15,625 nt of DNA from DATKZS01 sp035527835 [NCBI: bacterium] (lineage in GTDB: Bacteria > RBG-13-61-14): contig DATKZS010000030.1 in the NCBI GenBank assembly GCA_035527835.1, forward strand, positions 1-15,625. The letters run 5' to 3'. Below, one piece after another: positions 7,770 to 14,852 of this stretch. A program made the translations under genes and the position numbers. Every line of letters begins with the position of its first letter. Positions within the stretch are counted from its first letter, which is position 1. A model generated the notes under the pieces. That model was not told the origin of the DNA, did no database searches, and saw only the letters and a list, made by a program, of their open reading frames with translations.

Positions 7770-8219
7770 ATGGAAATAGAAAAGGCGTTACTGGCGCCCT
7801 GCGGGTTATACTGCGGGGTGTGCGGGATCCTGATGGCGCACCGGGACGGGAATGAGAAGTTCAAGGAGCGGCTGGCCGGGGTTTACGGGGTCAAGCCGGA
7901 GGACATGGTGTGCGAGGGCTGTTTATCGGAGACGGTCTTCGGCTACTGCCGGGTTTGTCCCATCAAGTCCTGCGCCCGGGAGCGGGGATATGAAGGCTGC
8001 CATCAGTGCGATGAGTTTCCGTGCTCTCACGTCAACAATTTCCCCATGGCGGCGGGTAAAAAGGCAATACTGCGTGCCATTCCCCAATGGCGCGAGCTGG
8101 GGACCGAGAAATGGGTGGAGTCCGAGCTGGCCCGCTACCATTGCCCGGCCTGCGGCCATGAGCTTTTCCGCGGAGCGAAAAGGTGCCGGCATTGCAAGGA
8201 GCCGGTGGACCAGGACTGA
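7770..8219 (+). CDS. DUF3795-type cysteine-rich protein with zinc ribbon
   Basis: A 149-residue cytoplasmic protein of unknown function. It opens with LLAPCGLYCGVCGI, the DUF3795 hallmark (C11, C15, C18), followed by C48/C51 (CEGC), C60/C63/C68 and C77/C80/C85 (CHQCDEFPC). A separate C-terminal zinc ribbon, CPAC at 125-128 and CRHC at 139-142, is an extra beyond the minimal family. The Cys spacing suggests metal or Fe-S binding. The ribosome binding site is AAGGAGG at 7756-7762, seven bases before the ATG. It is followed by a likely terminator and then a repeat hairpin, so it is probably a single-gene unit. The family is common in anaerobes; no specific reaction can be assigned. Confidence 0.88.
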   Translation: MEIEKALLAPCGLYCGVCGILMAHRDGNEKFKERLAGVYGVKPEDMVCEGCLSETVFGYCRVCPIKSCARERGYEGCHQCDEFPCSHVNNFPMAAGKKAILRAIPQWRELGTEKWVESELARYHCPACGHELFRGAKRCRHCKEPVDQD

Positions 8220-12513: not shown

Positions 12514-12569
12514 GCCGCGCCGCTGTTACGTCGCACCCGGCGCGATGTCCTCGGTCGGGAGGACGAATT

Positions 12570-12864
12570 TCGCACAGAGGCACGGAGAACACGGAGTTCT
12601 CGGAGCGAAATATATTTTATCTCTTCCTCTGTACTACTAACATGCAAGATGTATAAATTTCTTTGCACTTCGAGATGTTCGAACTATTTTTTGACAGGAT
12701 TAACAGGATTTACAGGATGCTCGGAAAGTGCAAGTTGATCTTCTTCCATCCTGTTAATCCTGTTAATTCTGTCAAAAAATCTTTTCATGATTTCAATTGA
12801 ACTGCCAAGACTATGTTTTGGTTGCGGCCAAAGGCCGCGCCAGGGTCTCTGTGACTCTGTGCGA
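12570..12864. repeat. Outer inverted arms of CACAGAG type
   Basis: TCGCACAGAGGCACGGAGA (12570-12588) and its inverted partner at 12846-12864 match at 17 of 19 bases. The left arm continues as a run ACGGAGAAC, ACGGAGTTC, TCGGAG with period near nine. The arms bracket the inner GGATTAACA hairpin, as if one repeat had nested inside another. Confidence 0.6.
12687..12788. repeat. Period-9 GGATNNNCA inverted repeat (copy 2)
   Basis: The arms 12687-12719 (T6, GACAGGATTAACAGGAT, then TTACAGGATG) and 12747-12779 are inverted copies matching at 31 of 33 bases around a 27-base loop. Nonamers GGATTAACA and GGATTTACA make up each arm. As at copy 1, ATCTTTTCAT follows immediately (12779-12788). Confidence 0.8.
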
Positions 12865-12920
12865 GATCAATCAGCCTCTGATCTTGCTCCCGGCCGAATC
12901 ATGGACATGCTCCCCTGGCG

Positions 12921-14087
12921 CTACACCCCGGGCGGCCGGCCCCGGGGCCAGCCGTGGGCCGCGCACATGACCAGGTCGGGCCCGGTCCCGCCCGCGCGAT
13001 ACCTGCACCCGCCGCTGCACTCGGCCGCGGCCTCGCAATCCCTGCACCATTCGAGCGCGGAGAGCGGCGTGACCTTTCTGTCAAGCCAGGCGTTAGCAAG
13101 GCCGCTCTTCACGCTGCCGAGCGGCGAGTCCTGGTAAAAGCCGCACTGACAGACGTCGCCGGAGGGCGTGAGCGAGGCGAGGTGAAGGCCGCAGGCATGG
13201 CCCTCGCCCGAGCCGTGGTACGACGATCCGAAGCCGCGGGCCATGGCGGCGGCCGCGTCGTCGAGGCTTACTCCCGCGCTGCTTTCCCGGTCCCACCGTC
13301 CGGCGGCGAGGGGGAAGTCGAGGCTCCACTCGCGCGCGCCCAGGCCCCTCACCAGCCTCTCCAGCCCGTCCATCTCCCGGATGTTGCCGGCGTGCACCAT
13401 GGTGGCGATGGACAGGTCCTTGCCGCTCCCGGCCACCACCCGGGCGGCGGCCACGGCCCGCGCGAACCCGCCCGGGCCGCGCAGGGCGTCGTGCCCCTTT
13501 TCCAGGCCATCGAGCGAGACCTGGACCTCGTGCACCGGCAGCACCCGGATTTTGGCGCGGGTGAGCGCCACGCCGTTGGTGAGGAGCACCACCCGGAACC
13601 CGCGGCCGGAAAGCGCGGCCGCCAGCCGGTCCCAGCGCGGATACAAGAGCGGCTCGCCGCCGGAGAGCAGCAGCCTAAGGCCCTGCATCGCGTCGAACTC
13701 GGCGATGGCCGCGGCCAGCAGCTCCGGGTCCAGGTCCTTTTTTTCCGGCTCGCCCAGGTAGCAGTGGCGGCAGCGGAGGTTGCAGCGCAGGGTGAGGATG
13801 ACTTCGAGGTAGCGAAGCGACGGCACGGGCGAGGACCCGCGCGCCAGCTTGCCGTCGGCGGGCCGGGGCGTGAAGGCGAGCAACTTTTCGGAGCGGGTGA
13901 AATCGAGCAGCTCGCGGTTCTTGATCTCGCTCTCGCGTTTGTTCCCGTCGGCCTCGTCAATGAAGGCCAGGCCGTCGTCGTCAAGCTCGTAAAGCTCGTC
14001 GGTCATGATGTTGAACAGGTGCGGGCATTCGAGTCCGCGAAAGACCACGTGCGGCGCGAAGCTGACAAAGGGATCAGACCGGCTCAT
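12921..14087 (-). CDS. Radical SAM/SPASM protein with PqqD-like N-terminal domain
   Basis: A 388-residue radical SAM enzyme. The SAM-binding [4Fe-4S] motif CNLRCRHC has cysteines at 102, 106 and 109; GGEP is at 143-146. The C-terminus has a complete SPASM pattern: C299-x10-G310-x4-C315, then C348-x2-C351-x5-C357-x3-C361, then C375, so two auxiliary clusters are expected. Residues 1-75 (APHVVFRGLE, HLFNIMTDELYELDDDG, FIDEADG) have the strand and winged-helix rhythm of PqqD-like peptide-recognition domains. Enzymes of this build modify ribosomal peptides or proteins. The start at 14087 has GGAGGA eight bases upstream and overlaps the seven-cysteine gene by 14 bases. It is the last gene of the yjbQ operon. 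The substrate is unknown; the neighbouring Cys-rich protein is the first suspect. Confidence 0.88.
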   Translation of the reverse strand: MSRSDPFVSFAPHVVFRGLECPHLFNIMTDELYELDDDGLAFIDEADGNKRESEIKNRELLDFTRSEKLLAFTPRPADGKLARGSSPVPSLRYLEVILTLRCNLRCRHCYLGEPEKKDLDPELLAAAIAEFDAMQGLRLLLSGGEPLLYPRWDRLAAALSGRGFRVVLLTNGVALTRAKIRVLPVHEVQVSLDGLEKGHDALRGPGGFARAVAAARVVAGSGKDLSIATMVHAGNIREMDGLERLVRGLGAREWSLDFPLAAGRWDRESSAGVSLDDAAAAMARGFGSSYHGSGEGHACGLHLASLTPSGDVCQCGFYQDSPLGSVKSGLANAWLDRKVTPLSALEWCRDCEAAAECSGGCRYRAGGTGPDLVMCAAHGWPRGRPPGV

Positions 14088-14466
14088 CCAGCCATTCCTC
14101 CGCCTCGTTGACGGCTTGGGCAAGGAGCCGGACGAGGAGCACGTAGCCGCCGCAAGGCACCGTCCCCGCGATCTCCTCCCCGCTCATGAAATCGCAGTCG
14201 TCCTCCCGGAACTCGCACCGCGCGCACAGCAGCCGCTCGATCCGCTCGTTGTGCTCGATTTTTTCATTACTCACCTCACCTGTGGGAGCGGCTTTAGCCG
14301 CGATATTCCCCGCCGCCTCCAACGCCTCTTTCCCGGCTTCCCCTTGCCCCCACTTCTCCCGAAAAAACTCATACCCCCGGCACGACAATTCCTCCTTCTC
14401 GCCCGGCCGGTAAAACCGGCAGTGCGGGACGCAGACCAGGGAGATGAGATCGGGCCGGTCTTTCAT
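14074..14466 (-). CDS. Seven-cysteine small protein, partner of the radical SAM gene
   Basis: A 130-residue soluble protein not matched to a named family. The cysteines fall in two groups: C12-x3-C16-x12-C29 (VCVPHCRFYR, SCRGYEFF) and C81-x2-C84-x6-C91-x13-C105 (CARCEFREDDCDF, then VPCGGYVLL). A low-complexity, charged linker (about 40-75) joins them. The spacing suggests Fe-S or zinc binding at each end. The CDF...PCGGYVLL part looks like a conserved block I have a sense of having seen in uncharacterised proteins beside radical SAM genes, but I cannot name it. The start at 14466 overlaps the yjbQ stop by four bases (ATGA), and its end overlaps the radical SAM start, so all three are coupled. 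It may be a substrate, an electron carrier or an accessory protein. Confidence 0.75.
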   Translation of the reverse strand: MKDRPDLISLVCVPHCRFYRPGEKEELSCRGYEFFREKWGQGEAGKEALEAAGNIAAKAAPTGEVSNEKIEHNERIERLLCARCEFREDDCDFMSGEEIAGTVPCGGYVLLVRLLAQAVNEAEEWLDEPV

Positions 14467-14852
14467 ATTACCTTCACGTGCAGTTGCCGCGAGCGCGGGC
14501 CGTCGAACTCGCAGAAGAACACGGACTGCCAGGTGCCGAGGACCAGGCGGCCGTTTTCGATGATGACAGTGACCGAGCTTCCCATGATGGAGGCCTGGAG
14601 GTGCGCGTCGGAGTTGCCCTCCGAATGCCGCCACGAGCCGCGCTCCGGCACCAGCTTTTCCAGGTGCGCCAGGATATCGCGCTGCACGTCCGGGTCAGCG
14701 TTCTCGTTGATGGTGATCCCGGCGGTGGTGTGCGGCACGAACGCCACCACCACTCCGCTCTCGACGCCGGCCTCCGCCACCGCGCGGGCGATCAAGCCCG
14801 TAACATCAATCATCTCCCGCCTCCGGGAGCTCTTTACCTGGACCGTGACCAT
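14463..14852 (-). CDS. yjbQ: YjbQ family protein (UPF0047, secondary thiamine-phosphate synthase type)
   Basis: A 129-residue, single-domain cytoplasmic protein. The signature VPHTTAGITINENADPDV (39-56) is followed by HSEGNSDAHL (76-85) and GTWQSVFFCEFDGPR (106-120), together diagnostic of the YjbQ/UPF0047 family. H41, H76 and H84 are the likely metal or active-site ligands. Weak thiamine-phosphate synthase activity is reported for the family; the true role remains open. The length is close to the family norm, so the gene is intact. GGAGAGG precedes the ATG. It heads a three-gene operon with the Cys-rich protein and the radical SAM gene, although its link to them is not obvious. Confidence 0.93.
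   Translation of the reverse strand: MVTVQVKSSRRREMIDVTGLIARAVAEAGVESGVVVAFVPHTTAGITINENADPDVQRDILAHLEKLVPERGSWRHSEGNSDAHLQASIMGSSVTVIIENGRLVLGTWQSVFFCEFDGPRSRQLHVKVI

Follow-up and report, generated by a model that had tools for sequence, protein, structure and literature searches.

The window (the whole stretch of DNA analyzed here; 15,625 nucleotides) contains three overlapping genes on its minus strand, which are listed below with the features that they carry.

14463-14852, minus strand: YjbQ (UPF0047), a local neighbor, assigned from its translation and a TIGR00149 score of 163 bits
14463-14466, minus strand: overlap of 4 bases (ATGA) between the YjbQ and Cys genes
14074-14466, minus strand: gene for a seven-cysteine protein of 130 aa (the Cys protein), whose translation contains a short Cys domain twice in tandem
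14281-14305, no strand: palindromic GCGGCT-TT-AGCCGC element, in frame in the linker of the Cys gene, found by eye
14074-14087, minus strand: overlap of 14 bases between the Cys and radical SAM genes
12921-14087, minus strand: radical SAM/SPASM enzyme of 388 aa, assigned from its translation and a Pfam Radical_SAM score of 60.9 bits
13833-14087, minus strand: N-terminal 85 residues of the enzyme, weakly PqqD/RRE-like and shortened in the middle (hhalign)

The translations and coordinates bear out the series of ATGA and 14-base overlaps described in the initial annotation. The palindromic element is GC-rich, lies between the two Cys domains, and has an exact 23-mer in two viral-collection contigs; a repeat finder requiring arms of at least 10 reported no inverted pair at 14281-14305. 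Downstream of the enzyme gene, 34-nt ACAGGATT-type units form an inverted repeat pair (12686-12780; 94% complementary; 27 nt apart) inside another inverted pair, whose arms are at 12567-12588 and 12846-12867, and resemble a small mobile or terminator-like element. Elsewhere in the window, positions 7770-8219 encode a cysteine-rich protein of 149 aa that is DUF3795-like by eye only.

YjbQ is a clear member of UPF0047/TIGR00149 (163 bits against a cut-off of 67.75), and had been counted as part of the coupled system. However, YjbQ is absent from 72 of 72 other loci that carry the system or its pieces, which leaves the window as the sole carrier among 73. Likewise, in a set of 80 of the 467 confirmed YjbQ loci, neither partner gene lies alongside, save for one 27-bit match. 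Both results rule YjbQ out as a system member; its contact with the Cys gene does not recur elsewhere (0/72 loci), and it is a bystander rather than a conserved part of the system.

The enzyme itself is well defined. Pfam Radical_SAM is matched by all 29 members of the enzyme family, and the cluster motif C102-x3-C106-x2-C109 is invariant in 29 of 29 alignment rows. The same is true of SPASM-type cysteines 299, 315, 348, 351, 357, 361, and 375 (with the spacing C348-x2-C351-x5-C357-x3-C361; 29/29 rows), which fit the spacing of the C-terminal SPASM seven-cysteine pattern. In favor of this pattern, the C-terminal part of the solved radical SAM chain 5wgg is matched by residues 293-364 (E 1.1e-5); against it, no SPASM model is among the five Pfam families matched by the 29 members at an E value of 0.1. 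With ten cysteines invariant in 29 rows, the protein fits the initial annotation of a complete SPASM radical SAM protein. A search of viral contigs with the window enzyme gave no match, and a search with the 29-row alignment gave 204 matches, among which none of the 80 listed is orthologue-like (best among the matches listed, 31% over 223 residues, E 9e-22). A plasmid search returned 12 records, all below 60% identity and none covering 80% of the query.

None of the best 25 of 70 NCBIfam models reaches its cut-off with the window enzyme. The top-scoring model is GeoRSP (TIGR04303), which likewise combines radical SAM and SPASM, at 81.2 bits against a cut-off of 400, a comparison at the level of the enzyme; among the 29 members, the best E value to TIGR04303 is 6.3e-28, and the best to any NCBIfam model listed is 2e-30. 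The PqqE/PqqD and mycofactocin MftC systems also contain a radical SAM/SPASM enzyme and a PqqD-type part, and the window enzyme scores 59 bits with the PqqE model (cut-off 381) and 71.5 bits with the mycofactocin model TIGR03962 (cut-off 265). The mycofactocin enzyme is reported to be co-inherited with a small conserved protein (PMC3023750). Among solved structures, a profile search ranked SkfB first, followed by PqqE and then by cytosylglucuronate decarboxylase. SkfB is a sactipeptide maturase, and its match (82.5 bits) lies over the radical SAM core and spans 157 of 391 profile positions; by eye, the partner protein in the window is unlike a sactipeptide precursor.

These relatives bear on a RiPP-like function, which we regard as the main alternative, possible but doubtful, in which the PqqD-like part of the enzyme would bind the Cys protein and the enzyme would cross-link or otherwise modify the conserved cysteines, and so yield a modified protein or a cofactor of peptide origin. 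SCIFF, like mycofactocin, provides a model for such a function. The ranking of SkfB and PqqE as the best solved relatives fits peptide modification, but a small-molecule enzyme, the decarboxylase, comes closely next. A weak PqqD likeness at the enzyme N-terminus also favors RiPP-like modification. In hhalign comparisons to 17 PqqD segments, which were taken from the genomes sampled here with the weakest PqqD match (L362) excluded, the N-terminus gave 68% over 48 columns (23 rows) and 76% over 31 columns (51 rows), and 100 column-shuffled controls of the 23-row PqqD comparison gave at most 3.4%. By contrast, none of the 29 enzyme members matches Pfam PqqD at an E value of 0.1, and ≈16 residues in the middle of the N-terminus are without a PqqD counterpart. 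The peptide-recognition domain proposed in the initial annotation thus finds weak support: judged from sequence comparison, the N-terminus seems weakly PqqD-like, and we do not call it PqqD proper. The single-sequence structure model of the enzyme is of low confidence (mean pLDDT 32.5), as is that of the Cys protein (mean pLDDT 41).

The cysteines of the window Cys protein are at residues 12, 16, 29, 81, 84, 91, and 105. This protein had been described as an unrecognised one, and it remains so; its best Pfam match is at noise level (E 0.15), NCBIfam gives no match, and no family in either collection was passed. A direct scan of genomes with the window protein also gave no match. For the Cys family as a whole, including its short forms, matches in Pfam, in PDB sequences, and, for the window protein and the short forms, in NCBIfam are at noise level only, such as a CCCH zinc finger (1/16, E 0.033) and ribosomal L32p (2/8, E 0.019). 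A fold like that of the small Fe-S subunit of hydroxyphenylacetate decarboxylase was not recovered by Pfam or PDB profile searches and was set aside.

Conservation within the family is strict. No substitution occurs at any of the seven cysteines, or at the glycine after the last one, in an alignment of 52 long or fused proteins (52/52), one that consists of 15 long, 7 fused, and 29 Nitrospirota proteins and the window protein, and that leaves out eight short forms, a subfamily that occurs without the enzyme, and the Nitrospirota matches that were not fetched. The long form consists of the short domain duplicated in tandem, because each half matches the short form in hhalign comparisons (95.4% for the first half and 96.7% for the second), where 40 shuffled controls for each half gave at most 1.6% and 1.4%, respectively. 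Compared to each other, the two halves gave 92.9%, with controls of up to 48.2%. Three of the conserved cysteines fall in the first repeat and four in the second, and the linker between the repeats of the window protein, at 51 residues, is the second longest of the 52. The small size of the protein and the existence of short forms of 54-65 aa are consistent with RiPP-like modification, but by eye neither of the two Cys alignments has a leader/core pattern, and the short form is conserved across its whole length.

The distribution of the two genes was determined in 297 genomes sampled from the phylum to which the Desulfuromonadaceae genome G026 belongs, presumably Desulfobacterota, with an orthologue threshold of E 1e-30. 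The enzyme is present in 30 of these genomes: 29 have a match at E 1e-30 or better, and in G026 itself the enzyme is a piece cut by the contig end, with an overlapping Cys gene. In 30 of 30 enzyme-bearing genomes, the Cys gene is either next upstream of the enzyme gene or fused to it, as a separate long form (107-126 aa) in 15, a separate short form (54-65 aa) in 8, and a fusion in 7. Six of the 30, all short-form carriers, were missed by the long-form Cys profile and were therefore counted through their neighboring open frames. In the 23 unfused pairs from these other genomes, with start codons picked by hand, the two genes overlap in 16 and lie within 10 nt of each other in 22; the remaining pair has a gap of 189 nt. 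Thus, the overlap of the Cys and radical SAM genes is more than chance. A second sample, centered on G012, contained the enzyme in 17 of 118 genomes, all of them already in the first sample, and therefore represents the same phylum and adds nothing to the evidence.

The pair also occurs in Nitrospirota, where G003 was the first genome with an enzyme orthologue. Among 148 Nitrospirota genomes, 52 have the enzyme (E 1e-40) and 52 have the Cys protein (E 1e-4): 49 have both, 3 the enzyme only (G003, G341, and G349), 3 the Cys protein only (G352, G423, and G439), and 93 neither (Fisher p ≈1e-31, a value that treats related genomes as independent). A short-form search in G003 gave no match, and many of the genomes are drafts, so that absences may be gaps. 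Of the 24 Nitrospirota loci read at the outset, 9 have the two genes in a head-to-head orientation, and the other 15 have no Cys gene within ≈1.5 kb. Overall, the distance is within 2.5 kb for 18 of the 49 pairs and 2.5-10 kb for 3; another 4 pairs share a contig at a distance of over 200 kb, and 24 are on different contigs, a class in which draft pairs may be closer than they appear, some matches being at contig ends. In 74 other genomes, the Cys family was not detected, and the two positive controls of that search were both found. An enzyme orthologue was likewise absent from 24 of these 74 genomes (best E 8.6e-26, core only) and, at a threshold of 1e-40 in a search that had no positive control, from the other 50.

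These results support the proposal that the Cys protein and the enzyme form a unit, since the Cys protein is present in every enzyme-bearing genome of the first sample (30/30) and in 49 of the 52 in Nitrospirota, and they show that the two are co-inherited even when their genes are unlinked. Such strict co-inheritance also favors RiPP-like modification. Shared descent alone, in which the pair would be co-inherited without a common function, must be weighed here. On the enzyme tree, a first group contains the first-phylum enzymes with long or fused partners, including the window enzyme on a long branch, and a second group contains the Nitrospirota enzymes together with the short-form enzymes. 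The arrangements of the gene pair are clustered on this tree, and the genome samples are phylogenetically non-independent, both of which could reflect shared descent. However, the pair is kept in adjacent, fused, head-to-head, and unlinked arrangements in two phyla, and we consider shared descent alone to be very improbable. The tree omits L191, which had too few columns, and has no rows for L083, L109, L121, and L122; the enzyme match in L109 contains an in-frame stop, and G136 has a broken second copy, L122.

The fusions and the occurrence of the Cys protein without the enzyme are informative about its role. The seven enzyme fusions are single open frames, with the Cys domain ahead of the enzyme N-terminus. 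On the enzyme tree, two changes are required to account for the fused form, with six fusions in one clade and one (L099) elsewhere, on a long branch whose position is unsure. Moreover, six of the 297 first-phylum genomes have a Cys match and no enzyme at E 1e-30. One of these (G135, locus L177) has by eye an apparent remnant of a fused gene. The other five (G047, G200, G224, G247, and G268; loci L175, L176, L178, L179, and L180) encode a divergent Cys subfamily upstream of an RluA-type pseudouridine synthase, with intact genes; the synthase was checked in Pfam in L176 and L180 and assigned by eye in the rest. In the loci read, a phosphoglycerate dehydrogenase gene, checked in Pfam in one, follows the synthase gene. 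All seven cysteines are kept in both of the sequences of this subfamily that were counted. Compared to the partners of PqqE and MftC, the Cys protein thus stands apart by its seven cysteines, its duplication, its fusion to the enzyme in some genomes, and its occurrence without the enzyme in others.

Both the seven enzyme fusions and the five genomes with intact genes and no enzyme weigh against RiPP-like modification. Together with a fusion to a cupin described below, they favor a partner domain over a substrate as the role of the Cys protein. Fusion does not by itself rule out a substrate role, because borosins can carry a RiPP substrate and the enzyme that modifies it in one chain.

A frequent third component of the system is a cupin of ≈114 residues with a histidine-rich tail, for which the Pfam scans covered two members. 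In 16 first-phylum loci, the cupin gene is on the same strand as the enzyme gene and at most 1 kb downstream of it, and in G445 it adjoins the Cys gene. In G443 (locus L366, positions 1600-2289), a Cys domain and a cupin are contained in one open frame of 229 aa, which is head to head with the enzyme gene. The gene that follows this fusion is ferritin-like or rubrerythrin-like by eye. In the first phylum, the cupin occurs in 24 of 297 genomes, of which 18 bear the enzyme (17 with cupin matches at E 1e-37 or better and one at 1.5e-19), and the matches in the 6 enzyme-less genomes are weaker (4e-13 to 2e-27). In Nitrospirota, the cupin occurs in 29 of 148 genomes, and all 29 have both the enzyme and the Cys protein. 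Free-standing cupin genes are mostly beside ArgJ and nitronate monooxygenase. In eight Nitrospirota loci (L246-L249, L251, L252, L254, and L261), a free-standing cupin gene follows an ArgJ-like gene, checked in Pfam in L246, and in several of these a nitronate monooxygenase gene is next.

Other neighbors are local partners of the system. Among 20 Nitrospirota loci chosen because the Cys and enzyme genes lie apart, 13 (L211 and L213-L224; checked in Pfam in one) have CutA1 touching or overlapping the unlinked Cys gene. A histidinol dehydrogenase gene is near 12 of the CutA1 loci, on the opposite strand. Downstream of the enzyme gene, four genomes in the short-form group carry an ATP-grasp gene (five loci, L142, L143, L145, L147, and L151, where the L151 copy is broken and the identity was checked in Pfam in L145 only), which is a further point in favor of RiPP-like modification. 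An ArsP_1 permease gene, checked in one locus, and an ArsR-like gene, assigned by eye, are near in four loci.

This set of neighbors raises the alternative of metal handling, in which the enzyme and the Cys protein would help to assemble or fill a metal site, with roles in metal homeostasis for the His-tailed cupin, CutA1, and the ArsP-type permease. We consider this function distinctly unlikely. It would account for the cupin gene downstream in 16 loci and its fusion to the Cys domain in G443, for CutA1 beside the Cys gene in 13 of the 20 chosen loci, for the permease and ArsR-like genes in four loci, and for one cupin locus (L262) that comes after a metal-ABC-permease-like gene, by eye. However, CutA1, the permease, and the cupin are each limited to part of the range of the system, the free-standing cupins are mostly in the ArgJ and nitronate monooxygenase context, and the 15.6 kb of the window lack a cupin as well as any member of the CutA1 and permease clusters.

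The interpretation that fits best, because of the invariant cysteines in a duplicated domain, the fusions, the coupled genes, and the enzyme-less occurrence, is that the Cys protein would bind metal or Fe-S clusters as a partner subunit of the enzyme, and would pass electrons or hold and present a substrate. We place about even confidence in this interpretation. In the mechanism that we propose, the Cys protein would fold around metal, either [Fe-S] clusters or zinc, by way of the three cysteines of repeat 1 and the four of repeat 2. It would bind the enzyme as a subunit, in order to pass electrons or to hold and present the substrate, and the small His-tailed cupin may often serve the same pathway. 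No Pfam, NCBIfam, or PDB relative of the Cys protein supports an Fe-S or zinc fold.

A broader scheme is a three-part pathway for a cofactor or metal center, new to biology and present in at least two phyla, in which the enzyme would act on or through the Cys protein to produce a redox or metal cofactor, protein-bound or peptide-derived, that the cupin would carry or finish. We regard this pathway as rather unlikely. Within it, the Cys domain, with its seven enzyme fusions and one cupin fusion, might act as the hub, a role that we hold to be just as speculative.

A literature search, whose coverage left most subscription journals outside, found no description of a system of this enzyme and Cys protein among the titles and abstracts listed. 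PMC12257519 concerns a peptide pathway unrelated to this system, in which a B12 enzyme and a cupin-like hydroxylase take part, and PMC9431491 concerns the M. voltae proteome. The suggestion that the system is an undescribed one holds to the extent that no name was found for the unit of Cys protein and enzyme. We conclude that the window contains a single copy of an enzyme system that is conserved and as yet unnamed. The co-inheritance profile of this system links an enzyme family that is without a single-function model to two small proteins that fall below every cut-off in the scans made. The system is present in about one-tenth of one phylum sample (30/297) and in about one-third of another (52/148), and its two or three genes make it a small, defined system in which biochemists could look for bound metal and modified residues.
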